Of a DNA stretch of 64,000 nt, positions 10,237 through 58,561 are shown piece after piece. Source of the stretch: Acidobacteriota bacterium (GTDB taxonomy: Bacteria; Acidobacteriota; Vicinamibacteria; Vicinamibacterales; Vicinamibacteraceae); contig JADLFL010000037.1 of the NCBI GenBank assembly GCA_020845575.1, positions 1 to 64,000 of the forward strand. The letters run 5' to 3'. A program made the translations under genes and the position numbers. Numbering within the stretch: position 1 is the stretch's first letter; every line of letters starts with the position of its first letter. The notes under the pieces are model-generated. The model was not told the DNA's origin. It made no database searches and was given only the letters and a program-made list of their open reading frames with translations.

Positions 10237-12300
10237 CACAGGCAGTTCCCACAACTCAGCGCTGCCTGTGACCCGTGTTGCTCCGGAGGCGCTGAGCCAT
10301 CTGCGGAGGGCGTCTGGCTGGGCCGTTGTTGGCCAGGCGTCGGGGTGGATGACCATGTGGGTCACGCCTCTTTCGCGCAGGGCGTCCATCGTCGCGTCGG
10401 CGTCGGACGGGTTGGCCGTGCCGGCGGCGAGACGGTCGGGGAACTCGCGCAGGCGCATGTCGAAGGCGAGGAAGCCGGGCGGCATGTCGCCGCTGTAGCC
10501 GTTCACGCGCGCGCGCCAGTGGCCGATCGAGAGGTATTGCCACCACACTTCGTACGGCAGCGATCCGAACGGCAGATCGATCAGGACGGCATCGGCAGGG
10601 AGCGCGGCGATCGCTCGTGCGAGTGGATGCTCGGCGGGTCGCGGCGGGAGCACCGCGGCGATCGGCCGGAGTGGCGCGGCGTCGATGCGCGTGTTGATCG
10701 GGATCGGGGCCGGCCAGCTCTCCGCCATGAACGCCACTGCCAGCACGCCCGTCGCGAGTGCGCCGTGCCGGCGGCGCATCAGGGCGTGGGCGGCGAGTCC
10801 GCCGATCACGGCGAGCGCGAGTGCGGTCACCATCGCGATGCGTGGCGGCACGCGCAGGCCGTCGGCGCCGGGGACGTACGCGTACACGAACGCGTAGAGC
10901 GACGGCCAGTGACGCGCCACGCGCCCGCCGATGTGCACGATCGGACCGAACGAGAGCCACACCGTCGCCGCGGCCAGCGCGATCATGAGGAACAGCGGCT
11001 GCTGCGGGTCGTCTCGTGCGACGCCGCGCGCCCGCGGCGAGGCCGCGAGGAGCACGCCCAGCGACAGCGCTAACCCGACGATGAGCCGCGTGCCATCCGT
11101 GATGCTGATCGTGATCGGCCCCACGTAGACGCGCTGCTGACCGGCAAAGAGCGCCAACGCGATCGCGACGACGTGCCCGGCGGCGAGCAGCGCGGCGACG
11201 ACGGCCACGCTGCGCCGCACACGTCGGGCCCCGGGCTTCCGCGGACTGGAGGCCAGGGGCTTCAGCCCCTGGCTCACGACGACGCCAGGCGATGGCAGCG
11301 CCATGCGTCTGTCGCGGATCGCGAGAAGCGCGGCGATCGCCACAAGCAGCACCGGCACCGCGCCCGGAAACAGATCCCCCTCCGGCCGGACCATCGTCTG
11401 GAGACGCGTGCCCCAGAGCCGGAGCTGGCCGTTGGCGGTGAGCCAGGCGTACGTGTCGGCGCTGTACTCCACCACGGCGGCGAGCGGGCGCGAGGGTTGT
11501 CCGAGGCGACGCACCTGCACGTAGGGGTAGAGGAACGGGAGCGTGAGTCCGACGCCTACCGCGGCGGCGATCGCCGGGCCGAGCCATGCGCGCGCGTCGC
11601 GCAGGCGATGGCGCAGCCACGCCTGCGCCGCGACGTACGGCGGCAGCCAGAGCGCGGCGTACACGAGGAAGTACCCGTTGGAGAGGTTCTGCGCCGCCAG
11701 GGCGAGACCGGCGAGCACGGCGTGGCACCAGCGGCCCCGCTCCCACCACTCGTGCAATCCCCACAGCACGAACGGGAACCACTGCGACGAGAGGACCTGC
11801 AGGTGTGGCCCCTGGTTCACGCGATACAGCGCGAATCCGTAGAGCAGTCCCGCGACGATTGCCGCCCGGCCATTGCGCGTGAGGCTGCGCACGAGCAGAT
11901 ACGCGCCGAGTGCAGACAGGACGAACGTCGAGAGGAACAGCAGGTTATAGGTCAGCAGAATGTTACCTGTCAGCGCGTACACGGGCGCGCCCTGCACGGC
12001 CTGCGCCACGAGCAGTTCCGACTGGCCGAGCGCGTACGGCGACGGATGGAAGATGTTGGCGTGCCACCAGTCCGACAGCGCCGCGACGTCGCCGTGCAGC
12101 ACGCGGCCCGCCTGGTGGAAGTGCCACGCGAGGATCCACGCGTTGAGGAGCGGATCGCCGAAGTCCCACGGGACGTCGCGCGTCAGCCCCGTCGCGAGGG
12201 GCCACGTCCACGCGACCGTGACGAGGACGAAGAGGAGCGCGGCGCCGAGCGGGCCGGGGCCTGTCGCGCGGGTGACGCCTGTGCCCCCCGCGCGCGTCAC
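10213..12300 (-). CDS. Large polytopic membrane protein, glycosyltransferase-C-like
   Basis: The 695-residue protein has about a dozen hydrophobic segments from residue 14 to about 510, then a soluble C-terminal domain. The layout (WTWPLATGLTRD, DFGDPLLNAW, WHANIFHPSPY, GAYLLVRSLT) resembles GT-C-type membrane transferases, but no catalytic site can be assigned. It starts at a GTG that overlaps the aminotransferase stop (GTGA). A paralogue with the same motifs lies at 38492-40198. Near residues 340-350 a stretch SQGLKPLASS is encoded by a dispersed palindromic repeat (11245-11275), and the tail SPKGKG comes from the CAAAGGG element. Confidence 0.65.
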   Translation of the reverse strand: MTRAGGTGVTRATGPGPLGAALLFVLVTVAWTWPLATGLTRDVPWDFGDPLLNAWILAWHFHQAGRVLHGDVAALSDWWHANIFHPSPYALGQSELLVAQAVQGAPVYALTGNILLTYNLLFLSTFVLSALGAYLLVRSLTRNGRAAIVAGLLYGFALYRVNQGPHLQVLSSQWFPFVLWGLHEWWERGRWCHAVLAGLALAAQNLSNGYFLVYAALWLPPYVAAQAWLRHRLRDARAWLGPAIAAAVGVGLTLPFLYPYVQVRRLGQPSRPLAAVVEYSADTYAWLTANGQLRLWGTRLQTMVRPEGDLFPGAVPVLLVAIAALLAIRDRRMALPSPGVVVSQGLKPLASSPRKPGARRVRRSVAVVAALLAAGHVVAIALALFAGQQRVYVGPITISITDGTRLIVGLALSLGVLLAASPRARGVARDDPQQPLFLMIALAAATVWLSFGPIVHIGGRVARHWPSLYAFVYAYVPGADGLRVPPRIAMVTALALAVIGGLAAHALMRRRHGALATGVLAVAFMAESWPAPIPINTRIDAAPLRPIAAVLPPRPAEHPLARAIAALPADAVLIDLPFGSLPYEVWWQYLSIGHWRARVNGYSGDMPPGFLAFDMRLREFPDRLAAGTANPSDADATMDALRERGVTHMVIHPDAWPTTAQPDALRRWLSASGATRVTGSAELWELPVKSPKGKG
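11245..11275. repeat. Palindromic repeat inside the membrane-protein gene
   Basis: The sequence CCAGGGGCTTCAGCCCCTGG is a near-perfect palindrome next to CTGGAGG. Related copies occur at 54599-54628 and 58373-58400, and weaker ones at 23890-23910 and 48982-49010. On the minus strand it encodes QGLKPLAS in frame. Confidence 0.7.
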
Positions 12301-50906: not shown

Positions 50907-51332
50907 CTACGAGTCGACCAATACCAGGGTCGGCACGCCATCGACTGCGGCGCACACGATGGCGTGCTGCGCGCAGCGTTGCGCGATCGCGACGGCCGTC
51001 GATGCGTCGAGACCGAGCACGAGCAGGCTGGGCTCTGGTGGCCACGCGCCTGACGGGTCGACGCCGGCACCTCGAAGCCACCGCCACCCGCCCGCGGACA
51101 GCGTGCGCTCGAGCGCGGCCATCGCAGCCTCGTTCCGTGCACGCGGCGTCGGTTCGCTGCGCGGATTCCACGCGGTGATGAACGCCGAACATGTCACGCC
51201 GAAGGCGCCGTGGCATGCGACGAGCGCCGCCGACGGCGTATCGACGCGCAGCACGAACGCGTACCCACCATCGTCGACGCGATAGTCGGTGCGGCGATAT
51301 GCCGCGATCAGGTCGGCGTCAGGCGAGGTCAT
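50907..51332 (-). CDS. DUF3293-like protein
   Basis: The 141-residue protein resembles DUF3293: AYRRTDYRV, FITAWNPRSEPTPRARNE, then LERTLSAGGW and a C-terminal LVLGLDASTAVAIAQRCAQHAIV. Function unknown. It is the last gene of the ATPase operon and overlaps the 125-residue protein's end by 14 nt. DUF3293 genes elsewhere occur alone, so the pairing with an ATPase here is not diagnostic. Confidence 0.7.
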   Translation of the reverse strand: MTSPDADLIAAYRRTDYRVDDGGYAFVLRVDTPSAALVACHGAFGVTCSAFITAWNPRSEPTPRARNEAAMAALERTLSAGGWRWLRGAGVDPSGAWPPEPSLLVLGLDASTAVAIAQRCAQHAIVCAAVDGVPTLVLVDS

Positions 51333-51696
51333 GCCCGGCCGATCGCAGGACGCCGAGAAATCGCTCCGTCGCCTCGATCCAGCGGACGACTTCCTCGCGC
51401 GTGGGCTGCAGTTCGTACGGATGGTGATGACATGCGCGGCTCAACAGACACCACGTGACGTAGCCTTCGCTCGCCGCGCCCACGTCCACGTACAGCCGCA
51501 ACGCCAGGAACTGCCCGCGCGCCGAGGCGTCGACCATGGACCTCGCACGCCGCATCCAGAATTCGTCGAGCGAGAGCTCGATGGCCTGCCGTGCCAGTAC
51601 CGCCGCGCCTCGACCCCACCAGTACGCGAGCGCCCAGTCGTCGCTGTCGACGAGCGTGCGGCTGTGCGCGAGCAGGGCTGTCGCGGCCGTCGTCAC
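51319..51696 (-). CDS. 125-residue helical protein of unknown family, partner of the ATPase
   Basis: The protein begins VTTAATALLAHSRTLVDSDDWAL and is almost all helical. A tryptophan-rich core (YWWGRGAAVLARQAIEL, FWMRRA) and LSRACHHHPYELQPTREEVVRW near the C-terminus are conspicuous. The GTG start overlaps the ATPase stop by GTGA, so the two are probably made together. The HHHPYE region could bind metal or RNA, a guess from composition only. No family recognised; a HEPN-like fold is possible. Confidence 0.6.
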   Translation of the reverse strand: MTTAATALLAHSRTLVDSDDWALAYWWGRGAAVLARQAIELSLDEFWMRRARSMVDASARGQFLALRLYVDVGAASEGYVTWCLLSRACHHHPYELQPTREEVVRWIEATERFLGVLRSAGHDLA

Positions 51697-54143
51697 GACA
51701 TGTGCCCTCGGCCCCGGAGCAGCTTCACCAGGGCATCGGTGCCGTCGATCAGTGCCTGCAACTCGCCCGTGTAGTCGCCGTGCGCGCCATCGAGGCACGC
51801 GCGGAACGTCGTCTTGTACGCAGGGCTGCGTCCCTGCGTCAGCGCGGACTCCACTTCGCCGCCGCGATCGGCATCGTCCATCAACGCCAGTGCCATCAGC
51901 TTGCGGAGTCCGATGGCCGACGTGAGCGCGTCCTCGACGTCGGCGTGACGATCGCCGCGTGCGAGTCGTCTGGCCCGCACCACTTCGTGGCAGGCCGCCT
52001 CGAGTGCGGATCGGCAGAAGTTCGGCACGAGACGCAGCTTGATCGCGTCGGGCATCTGCTCGGTCCGCGTCACGGCCACCGCATCATCCATGAGCATCTG
52101 CACGGGGCCGTGCGTGCGACGGATATCGACGATGGAGCGGGCCTTGCGGGTGATGTCGACGAACGTGGCGCTGATGGCGAGACGGCGCACGGCTTCGGGC
52201 AGCCGGTCATCGTGCGTGAAGACAATCACCTGATGCGTGCGCGCCACGTTGCCGAGCACGCGCGCGAGGCCCTCCACTTTCGACGGGTCGAGGGCCTGCA
52301 CGGGATCGTCGATCAGCACGAACCCGAACGGCGTATCCGGCATCGTCGCGCGTGGGAGGAAGAGGCTGAGCGCGAGGCTGTTGAGCTCGCCCTGCGACAT
52401 CACGCTCAGGGCCTTCGCGCCGTCGCCGTCGACCTTCACTTCGAGCTCGACGGCGCGGCGCGTGCGCGTGCCGACGACCTTGACGGCGCACAGCTCGACG
52501 TTGCTCTGCATGCGTAGCGTGGCCCAGTACTCGCGCGCCCTGTCTTCGATGGGCGCGAAGCGCTCGGCCCGGATCGTGACGATCTCGTCGCGCAGCCACG
52601 CGGCGGCCTTCTGCAGGTGCTTGCGCGCTTCGGCGGACGCCTGCGCCCTGACGGCGAGAGGCAGCCAGTCGCGCACCTTGTTCGCAACGGGACGCCAGAT
52701 GTCCTCGCGCCTCACGAGCTCGGCCCGCGCGGCGGCGACGACAGGTGCGAGTCGATCGGCGATGGCACGCACGCCGTTCTCGATGCGGAGCGCAAGCGTC
52801 TCCGGGGCTTCGTCGGCGACGGGTGTCGCGAACGCGCGCCATGCGTCGAGCAGGCCCGCCGTGTCGATGCCCGCTGGTGCGGCGTCTGCAAGCGCGCGTG
52901 GAGGCGCGGCACAGAACTGCAACGCGCGGGCTCGTGCCCGCTTCAATTCCTCCGCGGCAGTCTTCGCGTCGGAGGCGTCGGCGCGCAGCTTCGTCGAGAC
53001 GTCGGTTGTACGCGCGCGCCAGTCGTCGTGGATCACGCCGGGCGTGTCGCACACCGGACACGCGTTGTCCCGAGTCGAGACCGTGAATGCGAGTGCGGCA
53101 TCGAGGAGCTCGGCGAGCTGCAGCGATCGGCCGGCGCTCAGTTCGGCGAGGCGACGGCTCTCGGCGTCGGCGCGGCGCAGCGCGTCGGCAAGGACGTGCG
53201 CCGTGTCGGCGCTCGGCGCGGTAAGCGTCGCCAGCGCCTTCAAGGCTGTCGAGTCCGTGTCGGCAGCGTCGTCGTACGTCACGAGCGCGTCGATCGCGGC
53301 CGTGTCCCACGTGCGTGCGCCGAGGAGCGCGATGACCTCTGCGAGACGCGCGTCGCTTGCGTGCGTCGCCACGTCGGACGCGAATGCGATCGCCTCCTTC
53401 GCGACCGCCTTGGCGTCGTCGTGCTTCTTCTCACGATCCGTTACCGCGTTCTTCACGCGCGTGCGCACCGTTTCGTACTCGTCCAGGCCGAGCCCGCGAA
53501 CCAGCGCATCGTGCAGTTGCGAGTTCGCGTCGAACATGTCGCCGAGCTGCGAATAGGCGAGGAACGGAGGGTACTCGGTGGCGGCGCCGAGCCAACCCGT
53601 GTCGGCGATGGGCACCGTGGCGTCTGGCAGCTTCACGACCGTCTCGCCACTCGCCAGCGTGGCTTCATGGCCCCACTTGCGCGAGAAGGTCACGTGCCCG
53701 AGGCCTTCGACGGTCACCTCGGCGGCGATCAGCGGCGGGTTGGGTTCGTGCCGGTTGCGCCACCCTTCGCTGGCGACGGGCGTCGTGAACCGGGAGCAGG
53801 TGTTGGTGAAGAGCAGCTCTGCCGCTTCGGCAAAGCTGCTCTTGCCGGATCCGTTGCGGCCGCTGACCACCGTCAGTCCGGGCCCCTCGTTCAGCTTGAG
53901 CGCGCGCTCCGGCCCGATGCCCCTGAACGCCCTGACGCTGATCGACTTCAGGTACGCGCGCGACACGGGCGGCGACGGTTCGCCGCGGCTCTCTCTCGCG
54001 TGCCGCGTCTCGGCCCCCTCGTCGATCGCCGCCGCGAGTGCCTCATCGCCTTCGCAGGCATACGCGATGTACGTCGCGAACGGCTCCGTGTCCTTCCCGG
54101 CATCAGCAAGGCGTTGCAGCAGGTCATCCTGAATGGAAGGCAT
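51693..54143 (-). CDS. SMC/Rad50-like AAA ATPase
   Basis: The 816-residue protein has an N-terminal helical region (1-60) and Walker A GRNGSGKS at 95-102. A central coiled region contains a zinc-hook-like CPVC (362-365). The ABC signature (MSQGELNSLALSLF, 582-595), Walker B FGFVLIDD (606-613) and H-loop VFTHD (641-645) follow. The C-terminal 150 residues are helical with no assigned family. Such RecF/SMC-type ATPases are common in DNA repair and in anti-phage modules. Function here is inferred from operon context only. The structured repeat copy C lies in its leader. Confidence 0.85.
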   Translation of the reverse strand: MPSIQDDLLQRLADAGKDTEPFATYIAYACEGDEALAAAIDEGAETRHARESRGEPSPPVSRAYLKSISVRAFRGIGPERALKLNEGPGLTVVSGRNGSGKSSFAEAAELLFTNTCSRFTTPVASEGWRNRHEPNPPLIAAEVTVEGLGHVTFSRKWGHEATLASGETVVKLPDATVPIADTGWLGAATEYPPFLAYSQLGDMFDANSQLHDALVRGLGLDEYETVRTRVKNAVTDREKKHDDAKAVAKEAIAFASDVATHASDARLAEVIALLGARTWDTAAIDALVTYDDAADTDSTALKALATLTAPSADTAHVLADALRRADAESRRLAELSAGRSLQLAELLDAALAFTVSTRDNACPVCDTPGVIHDDWRARTTDVSTKLRADASDAKTAAEELKRARARALQFCAAPPRALADAAPAGIDTAGLLDAWRAFATPVADEAPETLALRIENGVRAIADRLAPVVAAARAELVRREDIWRPVANKVRDWLPLAVRAQASAEARKHLQKAAAWLRDEIVTIRAERFAPIEDRAREYWATLRMQSNVELCAVKVVGTRTRRAVELEVKVDGDGAKALSVMSQGELNSLALSLFLPRATMPDTPFGFVLIDDPVQALDPSKVEGLARVLGNVARTHQVIVFTHDDRLPEAVRRLAISATFVDITRKARSIVDIRRTHGPVQMLMDDAVAVTRTEQMPDAIKLRLVPNFCRSALEAACHEVVRARRLARGDRHADVEDALTSAIGLRKLMALALMDDADRGGEVESALTQGRSPAYKTTFRACLDGAHGDYTGELQALIDGTDALVKLLRGRGHMS

Positions 54144-54325: not shown

Positions 54326-54858
54326 GAGACGCCATTCTCTTCACAGACTCTTCAATCCGTTCTGGCACGGCGCGCGCCACGCAGCATGCTTTCGTCGCGG
54401 CGTAGTGACCGGGCTTGCTCGGCCCGTTTCTCCCTAACCGTTCGCTCAGCGCAACTTCTGTCTGGGAACCTGGAGTACGTGTGAGGGCGGGGTTGACAAG
54501 GTGGAAAACGTGAGCCGTGTACGACGGGCCCCCGCCCTCACAAGACCCGCGTTCTCTTTACAGACCCTTCAGCCCGTTCGACCACGCGGCGTGCCAGTGA
54601 GCCACGGGTTGAAACCCTTGGCCTCCATACAGAAGATGGTCTCCTTCGGCAGTTGGTCACCATCCTTGGATGGCAGGACACTCTGCGGGCGGCGATCACT
54701 GACTGCCGGACGACTTGTCCGCCGTAGCCCGAAGGGCGAAGGTGGAAGTCCGGCAGCTACGTGCGGCGGAGCCGACCGGTGCTTGGTGCTCGGTGCCCGG
54801 TGCCCGGTGGTCTGCCGCGCCGTAGCGCGTCAGCGCGGAGGCGGGCCCGGTGGCCGGA
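54326..54858. other. Repeat-rich gap between the ATPase and Lon-like operons
   Basis: No gene is supported in this 533-bp gap. It contains a degenerate REP palindrome (54409-54427) and two imperfect direct repeats of about 50 nt (about 54330-54380 and 54548-54598, around CTCTTCACAGAC). A palindromic repeat of the 11245 type (54599-54628), a block 54699-54756 with inverted ends around GACTTGTCCGCCGTAG, and a GGTGCCC array (54776-54810) follow. Open frames here read through the repeats and show no protein-like features. Confidence 0.7.
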
Positions 54859-56550
54859 TCAGTACGGATACAACCTCGCCACCTCCTCCGGTGAGGCGTT
54901 GGCGTGACGGAGGTGCGCGATCGGGCCGGGATCCTGGGTGGCCAGGGTGTCGATGCAGCGAGCGGCGGCGTTCGTGTCGGCGCGCGCGAGCGCCTCGTCG
55001 AGATCGGCAAGGGTGAGGTTACGCGATGCGAGCGGGTCGCCGCCATCCGCGGCCTGTTCCAGCAACGCCCGGCAGGCAGTGCCGGCCCAGCGGCTGGCGG
55101 ACCAGCGCACGTGATCGGGAAGCGTGACGTCGGCGGCCATGCGAGCGGCGTTGTCGCGCGCCGACGAGTCGCCGGGATCCAGTAGCAGTCGTCCGCGCAC
55201 GAGCGCGAGCTCCACATAGCGCGGCCCCAGCCCGCGATAGCCGCCCGACCCCAGCATGCGATCGTGGAACGCCTCGGCTCGCGCCAGCGACTCGCGATCG
55301 CGCAGGGCGCCTGCCAACCGCGCCCACTCCGATAGCGGATAAGCGACGTCCGCGTCCGCGTAGATGTCGGCGAACGCTCGCGCAAGCTGCTCCTGGGCAA
55401 CCAGTGCGTCAGGCGCCCGTCCTGTCACCGTGTGAAGCCGCGCGAGCGCGCCACGCAGGCGCAACTCCGCCGGAGACGACTCCTCAATCGCGCGATCGAG
55501 GAGCGCCTCAGCGGCGTGCTGCACGACGTGCGCGTCGGGCGTGGCCGTGTCCGCACACTGCTGGACGAGATGCGCCACGACGTGCACCCGCACCATGCGC
55601 GGCCGTGCGGTCAGCCAGCCGGCAGGCGGCATGGCGATCGTCCCTGCGTTCACGGCATGACGCGTGGCGACCGCGTGCGCGAACGAGAGCGCGTAGCGTG
55701 CGTCCGGCGTGATGTCGGTCCAGCGGTCGAGCGCGATCCGCGCGCCCCGCCGGACGGGAGCCCAGTCGACGAGCGCGTCGCTGCCCAGCAGCGCCAGCCT
55801 GAAGAAACTCGCCGTGAGCGCGTCTCGCCGCTCGGGATCGGCCGCCGCGTCGACCAGCAGGGCCGACAGCCGATCGCCGAAGGCCTCTTCCACCGCCTGC
55901 GCGGCATGCGCCACGGGCACGACGCGCAGGCGCGACCGTGCGTAAGCCGAAGCTTCCTCGTACTGGCTGGTCGCCACGATGAGCCGTGTGACGTGCGGCG
56001 CCATGCGTACGATCCCGGCGATCTTCTGTTCGAGCCCACCGACGGGACCGACGTGTCCCGCGGCATCGACGGACGCAGACGCGATGACGTCGCCCGGCAA
56101 CGCGCAGTGCAGCACGTCCGACGCGAGTCCGAGCACGAACGCGAGTCCGAACGACGGGCCATCGATGGGCGCGTGCAGATCCGGCACGCCGGGCGCATTG
56201 CGCACCGACGCCATGTACGCGATCGACGGCGGAGTCGATGTCGCGTCGTGCATGCTGTGCCAGAGCACGGGCAGTCCGCGTGGCAGCGCGAGGCCGGCGT
56301 CGCGCCACGACGCTCGCAGTGCAGGTCCGAGCGCAGGCCCGTGTTCGACGCTGTCCGTCGCGTGCCCGCGTGAGACGTGCCAGAGGACCACCGTGTCGTG
56401 CTGCACGGTCACGGCCGCCGTGGATCCGACAGCCGGCTCCGGCATCGGTCCACGCGCGGCGATGATGCGCGCCACGTCGGCCTCGCGCGGCCAGCACCAC
56501 GGGCCGGCCGCCCAGGCCTCGTCGGCGACGTGCGGGCGCAACCAGGACAT
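54859..56550 (-). CDS. Lon-type serine protease domain protein with helical C-terminal region
   Basis: The 563-residue protein has an N-terminal region (1-110) of unknown fold and then a Lon (S16) protease domain. IDGPSFGLAFVLGLAS has catalytic Ser133, and HVGPVGGLEQKI has Lys176. The 43-residue spacing equals that of Ser679-Lys722 in E. coli Lon, and LIVATSQYEEA and VPVAHAAQAVEEAF also fit. It lacks the AAA+ ATPase of Lon. The remaining 330 residues are helical and may form TPR-like repeats that sense or bind a partner. The ATG overlaps the stop of the middle gene (TGATG). It is last in an operon with the sigma-like gene. Confidence 0.82.
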   Translation of the reverse strand: MSWLRPHVADEAWAAGPWCWPREADVARIIAARGPMPEPAVGSTAAVTVQHDTVVLWHVSRGHATDSVEHGPALGPALRASWRDAGLALPRGLPVLWHSMHDATSTPPSIAYMASVRNAPGVPDLHAPIDGPSFGLAFVLGLASDVLHCALPGDVIASASVDAAGHVGPVGGLEQKIAGIVRMAPHVTRLIVATSQYEEASAYARSRLRVVPVAHAAQAVEEAFGDRLSALLVDAAADPERRDALTASFFRLALLGSDALVDWAPVRRGARIALDRWTDITPDARYALSFAHAVATRHAVNAGTIAMPPAGWLTARPRMVRVHVVAHLVQQCADTATPDAHVVQHAAEALLDRAIEESSPAELRLRGALARLHTVTGRAPDALVAQEQLARAFADIYADADVAYPLSEWARLAGALRDRESLARAEAFHDRMLGSGGYRGLGPRYVELALVRGRLLLDPGDSSARDNAARMAADVTLPDHVRWSASRWAGTACRALLEQAADGGDPLASRNLTLADLDEALARADTNAAARCIDTLATQDPGPIAHLRHANASPEEVARLYPY

Positions 56551-57557
56551 CAGAAGTAGTGTGCGTCGAAGTCGGTGCTGCCCCACCACGCCGCGGGATC
56601 GCCCAGCGCCACGCGTCGCAGCCGCTCATCGTCTGCGGCGATTGCGGCATGGAGGTTGATGCGGATCGCGCGGCCCGTCCTGTCGGCAGATTCGAGCGCC
56701 GCGTCGAGACGGTCGACGGCACCCGCTTCGTGCAGCAGCACGCGCACGCTCTCGATGTCGTCGCGCCGATGGCAGAGTCGACGCCAGCTGACCGACGCTT
56801 CAGAGAGATCGGCAGACAGCGTGTCGAACAGATCCGTGAGATCGTCGCCGAGCGCTTCGGCGCGCCGGACGGCCTGCTGTTCGAGCGCGCGGATCGACGC
56901 GGTGTCGAGCGTGCGCGCCCAGCGGCGTGGCGCCAGTTCCGCGTCGCTGACGAGATCCTGCAGGCGTCCGCTCGCGATGAGCGCGGCGACGTCCGCAGCG
57001 TCTGGCTCGCACAGGCGTGCGAGCTGGCCCGCGAGCGACGTGCGCGCCCAGGCGTCGGCGGCGAGTGCCTGCCCCAGTTGTTCCTGCATCCACGCGTCGT
57101 GTGTGTTCACCGTCCACTCCTCGACCGGAGGACCGGCCCACGCATACACCGGACGCAGCAGCAGGGCGCCTGCGTCGCGCCAGCCGACGACGAGCGGCGT
57201 GCCGCTCGCTGTCTCGATGAGGAAGCGCCCCGGCTGCTGGAGCGCGACGCGCGCGATGCCGGCGGCATCTGCCGCTTCGGCCTCACGCGCCCGCAAATCC
57301 GGCCGCACCTGGAACGCTGCTGCTCCTCGTGCGATGACGCGCAGCTGCGCGACTGCCGCGTCGAGTTCGATCCGCATGCCGAGCGCGTCCATCACCGGGC
57401 TGTGCGCCGGCAACAGCACCGACGGTGCGCCGGGCGTGCTCCCGAGCGCCGCGTGCGGCGAGAGGGTCGGCATCGCCAGGTGCTCGATCGGGCCGAGCAT
57501 CTCGGGCCCGATGCCCATCGCGCGCAACTCCTCGTGCATCTCCGGTGCGGTGTTCAT
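56550..57557 (-). CDS. Soluble protein of unknown family between sigma-like and Lon-like genes
   Basis: The 335-residue protein has no signal peptide, membrane segment or recognised domain. Short proline/glycine-rich stretches lie in the first 50 residues, a beta-rich central part (FLIETASGTPLVVGWRD, LLLRPVYAWAG) follows, and a helical C-terminal half closes it. It overlaps both neighbours (ATGA and TGATG). By analogy to sigma/anti-sigma/protease operons it could be the inhibitor of the sigma-like protein and the substrate of the protease. This is inference only; no cysteine-histidine zinc anti-sigma motif is present. Confidence 0.55.
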   Translation of the reverse strand: MNTAPEMHEELRAMGIGPEMLGPIEHLAMPTLSPHAALGSTPGAPSVLLPAHSPVMDALGMRIELDAAVAQLRVIARGAAAFQVRPDLRAREAEAADAAGIARVALQQPGRFLIETASGTPLVVGWRDAGALLLRPVYAWAGPPVEEWTVNTHDAWMQEQLGQALAADAWARTSLAGQLARLCEPDAADVAALIASGRLQDLVSDAELAPRRWARTLDTASIRALEQQAVRRAEALGDDLTDLFDTLSADLSEASVSWRRLCHRRDDIESVRVLLHEAGAVDRLDAALESADRTGRAIRINLHAAIAADDERLRRVALGDPAAWWGSTDFDAHYF

Positions 57558-58360
57558 GATCCGTACTCCACGTCGGTCGCCGCGTCGCGTCTGTCGACAC
57601 GCGGTGCGAACACCTCCGCCGCCACTCGCCGGACTTCGTGCTCGAGCTCGGGGCGGACCGCCGCGTGTACCAGCCACGCCGACAGCCGCGGGACGTGCGT
57701 AGGGGTGTTCGCCGGCACTTCGAGCAGGTAGCCGCGCGTGCGCTTGTGCCGCTGGTACACCCTGTTGCGCACCTTCACGAAGTCGCCGCGTCCGCCACTC
57801 TCGCGTGTGACGATGGCGTCGACGGTGAGCTCCTCGTCGGCGATGGCGCGCAGGTCGCTGACGTTCGCGAGGAAGCCGTCGGGGTTCTGCAGCGTGCGCG
57901 CGATCTCCGGGATCGCTCGATCGAACAGCACCGCCGCTGCTTCATCCAGCAGTGCCGCATGTTCGCCGGCGATGGCCACCTGCTCCGGCGTTTCGCGATC
58001 GATGGCGTCCACAGGCCTGACAGCCGCATCGTCGGCCGGCGTGAGCGACTCGAGTCGACGACGCTCGCGCTGCGTGTGCCGGTGCATGTCCTTGACGCGG
58101 TTGGACAGCGCTCGCATCAGGTACGCCTCGGCCTCGACGTCGGTGACCGTGTAGCGCCGCGGCCCCGGACGACTCTTCGAGAGCCTGATCAGCACGTCCT
58201 GCACCACCTCGTCCTGCCTGTCTCGCGCGCCCACGCGCCGTGCCAGCCGCACGAGTGCGTGGTACGCCACGATGGTGGCGTCTTCGCGGCGCTGCCGCTC
58301 ATCTGGCGACAACGTGCCGTCGGCCGGAGCCATCTGGACCAACGCCTCCGACAGGGTCAT
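57554..58360 (-). CDS. Sigma-70-like (ECF-type) protein with divergent C-terminal part
   Basis: The 268-residue protein has a region 2-like helix bundle: HALVRLARRVGARDRQDEVV at about 34-53, then VLIRLSKS and YLMRALSNRVKDMHRHTQRE, which match the core-binding and -10 recognition helices of ECF sigma factors. A region 4-like helix may be VRNRVYQRHKRTRGYLLEV (about 197-215), after an unusual insertion (about 125-195) and with a further 50 residues behind. It is first in the operon. The ATG at 58360 lacks a strong ribosome binding site. The unusual region 4 means promoter recognition cannot be predicted. Confidence 0.7.
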   Translation of the reverse strand: MTLSEALVQMAPADGTLSPDERQRREDATIVAYHALVRLARRVGARDRQDEVVQDVLIRLSKSRPGPRRYTVTDVEAEAYLMRALSNRVKDMHRHTQRERRRLESLTPADDAAVRPVDAIDRETPEQVAIAGEHAALLDEAAAVLFDRAIPEIARTLQNPDGFLANVSDLRAIADEELTVDAIVTRESGGRGDFVKVRNRVYQRHKRTRGYLLEVPANTPTHVPRLSAWLVHAAVRPELEHEVRRVAAEVFAPRVDRRDAATDVEYGS

Positions 58361-58372
58361 GGCCCTGTGTGC

Positions 58373-58400
58373 GCCGGGAGCTGAAGCCTCTGGCCTCCAT
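58373..58400. repeat. Palindromic CTGAAGCCTCTGGCC repeat upstream of the sigma-like gene
   Basis: CTGAAGCCTCTGGCCTCCAT matches the repeat at 54599-54628 and 11245-11275. It lies in the 201-bp gap before the sigma-like start, which shows no gene. Confidence 0.65.
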
Positions 58401-58561
58401 CCGACGTCATGTGGAGCGAACGGTCCGCCATGGCGTGAAGCGAGACGGCGGGAAACCCGTTCGTCAGCGAAGTTGACCCACGCGCCGCTGCCCACGGGGC
58501 GAAGACGACGCGGGCGGTGCGCGTCTGACGGCGCATCGCCCCTGGACGTGAAGACCAGACC

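Follow-up and report, generated by a model that had tools for sequence, protein, structure and literature searches.

Protease-released sigma factors are already known in CRISPR-linked immunity from the Calp and CASP systems. In the CalpL-CalpT-CalpS system, which belongs to a type III CRISPR locus of Sulfurihydrogenibium, an anti-sigma factor is cut site-specifically by CalpL, whose AAA-less Lon domain serves as the endopeptidase (PMC11417357), while the Csx29-Csx30-CASP-sigma system belongs to type III-E CRISPR of Desulfonema (PMC10028731). RseA and RsiW, by comparison, are controlled by regulated intramembrane proteolysis (PMC10028731). Here we analysed a stretch of 64,000 nucleotides from an Acidobacteriota bacterium (the window) and found three adjacent genes, termed Sig, Mid and Lon, that likely form a CRISPR-independent proteolytic sigma switch in antiviral immunity, with the cleavage of Mid and the inhibition of Sig being inferred without any experiment. 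A literature search, in which subscription journals were mostly not covered, found no description of a Sig-Mid-Lon trio, nor of an ECF sigma factor in combination with BREX and Druantia.

The initial annotation had described three overlapping open reading frames at 54859-58360, the first with an ECF-type region 2, the second without a recognised domain and the third with a Lon dyad (Ser133 and Lys176, 43 residues apart), no AAA+ domain and a long helical C-terminal region. These descriptions were borne out throughout. All three frames are present on the minus strand and overlap by ATGA and TGATG: Sig (57554..58360) is an ECF-type sigma-like protein of 268 aa with a recognisable region 2 and a diverged region 4; Mid (56550..57557) has 335 aa, belongs to no known family and is the proposed inhibitor of Sig and substrate of the protease; and Lon (54859..56550), of 563 aa from its ATG, carries an AAA-less S16 (Lon) protease domain followed by a helical C-terminal half. 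Since Sig, Mid and Lon are conserved in relatives, chance open reading frames can be excluded. Further along the minus strand lie three more genes. The first encodes an SMC/RecF-type ABC ATPase (816 aa, 51693..54143) that contains a CPVC hook-like motif and is a candidate sensor, the second a small protein of 159 aa that matches no known family (51319..51798), and the third a DUF3293 protein (50907..51332), with which the co-directional run ends. The ATPase gene, like the promoter described below, had gone unnoticed in the initial annotation. The window also holds REP/MITE-like repeat copies with the core TGAARCCYYTGGCCTCCAT at 54597-54628, 58369-58400 and 11246-11264, and such insertions near the operon may account for the long distance between promoter and ATG (see below) and for the 715 bp gap between the Lon and ATPase genes in this genome.

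Lon matched Pfam Lon_C with a score of 25.2, above the curated cut-off of 21.1, and no AAA+ domain was found in it. The codons of Ser133 (TCG, 56152..56154, minus strand) and Lys176 (AAG, 56023..56025, minus strand) were checked, and both catalytic residues are invariant in 10 homologues. A profile of ten Lon homologues aligns with Lon proteolytic domains, and Ser133 and Lys176 coincide with the catalytic Ser/Lys pair of A. fulgidus Lon. The AlphaFold2 model of Lon (pLDDT 86, pTM 0.82) has its best PDB match in the Lon proteolytic domain of 6x1m (E 7e-7, TM 0.73 of target); the proposal would have been refuted by a predicted structure that keeps Ser133 and Lys176 apart, and the Lon proteolytic fold with both residues aligned to catalytic positions is consistent with the dyad, no Ser-Lys distance having been determined. 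Behind the protease domain the model is all-helical, with ~320 residues arranged in helix pairs (residues ~240 to 560) and ending in a conserved [YF]PY. Neither Pfam nor PADLOC yielded a match to a SAVED domain, and no TPR family matched the helical half, which is TPR-like by the model only. In the same genome, Lon_C also occurs in two other open frames, 500-575 aa in length (G000:C5:14594-14836 and G000:C22:9397-9813; L003 and L005), which possibly encode other AAA-less Lon-type proteases.

Sig falls just short of the family thresholds, scoring 23.7 bits (4.2e-05) against Pfam Sigma70_r2, 0.3 below the cut-off of 24, and 5.6e-06 against TIGR02937, also below the family cut-off. One homologue of Sig clears the Pfam cut-off with 30.3 bits, the Sig family profile matches solved ECF sigma factors at 1e-4, and the family aligns over region 2 with ECF proteins from the window's own genome (hhalign E 8e-7); the profile of the latter comprised 14 proteins, a few of them in the wrong frame, which added noise and did not create the region 2 match. 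The near-cut-off matches, the solved structures and the profile-profile alignment thus agree, and a lack of region 2 homology, which would have refuted the proposal, is not what we see. Region 4 has no family match in Sig, and the end of region 4.2 gave only a short and weak alignment (second hit of hhalign, probability 0.3%), R207 and L212 of Sig being conserved in eight homologues. By its region 2, Sig is predicted to be an ECF-type sigma factor.

The Lon protease family is rare: of the 193 genomes of the class, 9 carry it, and it also occurs in one genome from another class (G367). Its 11 loci, two of which are in G004, span four genera from two acidobacteriotal classes and without exception have the order Sig-Mid-Lon; profile searches did not extend beyond the phylum. 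Absence of the trio from other genomes had been set beforehand as a refutation, and this did not materialise. The loci represent five distinct contexts: the locus of the window's genus (five genomes), the second copy in G004 (L035), G120 (L041), the f16 genomes (L038-L040) and G367 (L053). No trio homologues were found in plasmids, phages or viral contigs, and an additional scan of genome contigs returned two records only, both from genus members already known. Homologous 380-aa genes (28% identity) lie immediately before Sig in two different classes (L041 10057-11196 and L053 11023-12156); they have no Pfam match, and a DESG motif spotted by eye suggests a DUF3800-like fold.

The genes adjoining the trio differ between lineages and point to a context of antiviral immunity. 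In G367, cas10 is the next co-directional gene after Lon (Cas10 palm domain 6e-19), followed by Cmr3 and RAMP genes, and the same contig carries a CRISPR array with about a dozen copies of a 37-nt repeat and a Cas_APE2256 gene. The reading of the window's trio as a Calp-like switch is supported, and the position of this homologous trio right before cas10 of a type III CRISPR locus strengthens the analogy. In G120, a gene for a NACHT-Sel1 protein of 1600 aa begins 17 bp past Lon, and type I R-M genes are also found on the trio contig. In the window's genus, an SMC-type ATPase gene follows Lon in the same direction in all five members, and the gene for the 159 aa protein lies behind it in four of the five, the fifth contig ending before it; this synteny is a single event and was not counted as independent evidence. 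The absence of CRISPR near the window's trio had been correctly noted, and we found no Cas10 in this genome or its genus. Weak Cas10 matches in G018-G020 are likely cyclase cross-hits and were not used. Genes for vWA-domain proteins recur in several lineages, either next to the trio or following its promoter motif (L032 14051-14722, L034 2-241, L105 3856-5115, L040 11458-12717 and L063 7571-8368), that of L063, which was assigned from sequence only, lying near a protein-kinase-like gene.

The window ATPase resembles LmuB, mad3, AriA and PtuA, a similarity that is generic to the ATPase fold. Within the genus the trio proteins share 35-71% identity and the ATPase 36-58%, versus 72-92% for the flanking metabolic proteins (IlvD, DHDPS). 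The ATPase alignment rejects the trees of the trio and the flanks (delta logL 264, AU p<0.001), as its own tree joins L031, where the gene is truncated by the contig end, with L034 (100% support). This conflict indicates that the ATPase was exchanged in place while the trio stayed, as expected of an exchanged sensor. The neighbouring genes suggest that a separate, exchangeable protein, and not the helical region of Lon, does the sensing.

Upstream of the operon we identified a predicted ECF-type promoter (58503..58529, minus strand) composed of GTCAGA (58524-58529), a 16-nt spacer and CGTCT (58503-58507), 142 bp before the ATG of Sig and the sole copy of this motif in the 64 kb. Exact copies of GTCAGA-N16-CGTCT precede Sig in all five genus members, with unrelated spacers, and also in L040 of the f16 genomes, which belong to a second order, with about 8e-5 copies expected per 200 bp. 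Neither the trio loci of G120 and G367 nor the second G004 locus yielded the motif. In form it matches known ECF promoters with a CGTC-type -10, including the ECF41 motif TGTCACA-N16-CGTC (PMC3426412), and its recognition by Sig is inferred; owing to this similarity to the ECF41 motif another ECF sigma factor might read it, and the window's genome contains 34 region-4 matches.

The eight trio genomes hold 22 exact sites versus 2 for a reversed control, and 10 of their 16 sites outside the trio are in promoter position (one at a contig end, L085, accepted by eye). In the window's genome the motif lies 41 bp before a gene for an 1183-aa protein, behind which lie DruE and a DrmD-like helicase (a Druantia-like operon), in G004 it lies 62 bp before a BREX operon (brxC/pglY-pglZ-brxD-brxHI), and in G003, G018 and G020 it is found 23-44 bp before vWA genes, the other promoter-placed sites preceding an ARPP-1 gene and some genes without a link to defence. 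In 12 relatives lacking the trio, only 3 of 15 sites are near an ATG, all three being internal ATGs of longer open reading frames. Total site number is only modestly higher in trio genomes, and it is the placement that differs (10/16 versus 3/15; Fisher p 0.03, or 0.0002 when the three internal ATGs are discounted), with p rising to 0.06 when one of two orthologous vWA sites is dropped. The base before GTCAGA, which was not part of the search, is T at 12 of 22 sites in trio genomes and at 1 of 15 in trio-less genomes (p 0.004). The putative regulon is small and was assembled post hoc; some of its genes are not defence genes, and its sites include one orthologous pair.

These neighbours and sites bear on whether the trio could be a general stress or envelope sigma circuit without a link to phage, its defence neighbours being chance islands. 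The genus trio does occupy a conserved site beside the metabolic genes IlvD and DHDPS, no obvious sensor gene adjoins the trio in L035 and L038-L040, several loci lack an obvious defence neighbour, and an ECF switch need not involve phage. We nevertheless regard such a circuit as unlikely, considering the immediate co-directional linkage to cas10, the NACHT gene and the SMC-type ATPase in three unrelated contexts, the rapid evolution and exchange of the ATPase, the motif before BREX and Druantia-like operons and the patchy distribution of the trio.

Mid has no family in Pfam or NCBIfam, no relative in the PDB by sequence and nothing significant in fold searches of the PDB and of viral structures, and by sequence or fold it resembles no PDB entry of an anti-sigma factor, CalpT or Csx30. 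Its AlphaFold2 model is of moderate confidence (pLDDT 77) and predicts a beta-rich N-terminal domain of variable sequence (about 25-137) and a conserved helical C-terminal domain (145-317). Among the three proteins, Mid shows the strongest conservation within the genus (pN/pS 0.33-0.48), although these values are near saturation and demonstrate purifying selection only. A match to DrmC (E 0.01) was dismissed as chance, and weak matches in G090, G119 and G185 were dropped as trehalose-phosphate synthase-like by sequence. A Mid-like C-terminal domain was also observed on a short contig in which no Lon was detected (L042 2-751, G088:C296), possibly a remnant or another use of the domain.

Two domains of unknown fold, this conservation and the lack of homology to inhibitors would also fit Mid being an effector, that is a toxin or enzyme precursor activated or destroyed by the protease, with Sig merely autoregulating the operon. 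We hold this to be improbable, as two systems studied by experiment likewise combine a sigma factor, a middle protein and a protease (PMC10028731, PMC11417357) and as the window's Sig gene overlaps that of Mid. The predicted sigma promoter is, moreover, carried by defence operons. That the protease directly degrades or processes Sig, and is an off-switch rather than an on-switch, would agree with the degradation of regulators by Lon family proteases in general and with an exposed site that the linker of Sig could hold, a Lon without AAA+ domain cutting exposed sites only. This is highly improbable, since the AAA-less Lon domain of CalpL cleaves an anti-sigma factor site-specifically (PMC11417357) and direct degradation of Sig would leave Mid without a role.

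In the proteolytic switch that we favour, Sig would be kept inactive by Mid in the resting cell. An infection sensor encoded just downstream, namely the SMC-type ATPase with its small partner here and the NACHT protein or the type III CRISPR complex in relatives, would act on the helical C-terminal half of Lon and activate the protease, whereupon the Ser133/Lys176 centre would cut Mid. The freed Sig could then join RNA polymerase and transcribe from GTCAGA-N16-CGTCT promoters, its use of these motifs being inferred from sequence alone. Transcription of its own operon would amplify the response, and Sig would also transcribe defence genes elsewhere, such as the Druantia-like operon here and the BREX operon in a relative.

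More tentatively, and with slightly more doubt than confidence, we propose a portable immune relay in which interchangeable sensors (SMC-type ATPase, NACHT, type III CRISPR) feed one module of Lon protease, anti-sigma factor and sigma factor, making BREX, Druantia and vWA systems one inducible regulon. With one switch in a soil bacterium, differing virus sensors in its relatives and antiviral clusters that are apparently induced, a common "alarm relay" may exist. If true, a CRISPR-independent module with several sensor types and a readable motif would amount to a coordinated, inducible programme of immune transcription in bacteria; how large defence operons are switched on is an open question, which the motif makes directly testable.

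How does this trio relate to known systems? Like Lamassu LmuB, PARIS AriA and MADS mad3, the window locus combines, in a defence context, an SMC/RecF-type ABC ATPase with a small partner gene, whereas no LmuA, AriB or other known effector was recognised beside it. With RseA and RsiW the trio shares the (here inferred) proteolytic release of an ECF sigma factor, but those rely on a membrane anti-sigma factor and DegS/RseP-type proteases, while sequences and models give no sign of a membrane protein in the trio. As in Calp, an AAA-less Lon protease with a Ser-Lys dyad, a middle protein and an ECF sigma factor are encoded together, and one homologous trio, that of the distant relative G367, is linked to type III CRISPR; in contrast to CalpL, whose C-terminal SAVED domain binds cA4 (PMC11417357), the Lon of the trio has a helical repeat, Mid has no detectable relation to CalpT, and the window's genome has no Cas10 to make cA4. 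The CASP system similarly combines a protease bearing a helical (TPR) region, a substrate that inhibits an ECF sigma factor (a role inferred for Mid) and a sigma factor with defence-linked targets; its protease is, however, of the CHAT (caspase-like) type and not Lon, Csx30 and Mid are unrelated in sequence or fold searches, and there is no Cas7-11 here. Lacking the defining feature of each, the SAVED domain of Calp and the CHAT protease of CASP, the trio is therefore a member of neither. In CASP, sensing falls to a distinct protein, which docks on the protease, and it is this same logic that we propose for the trio.
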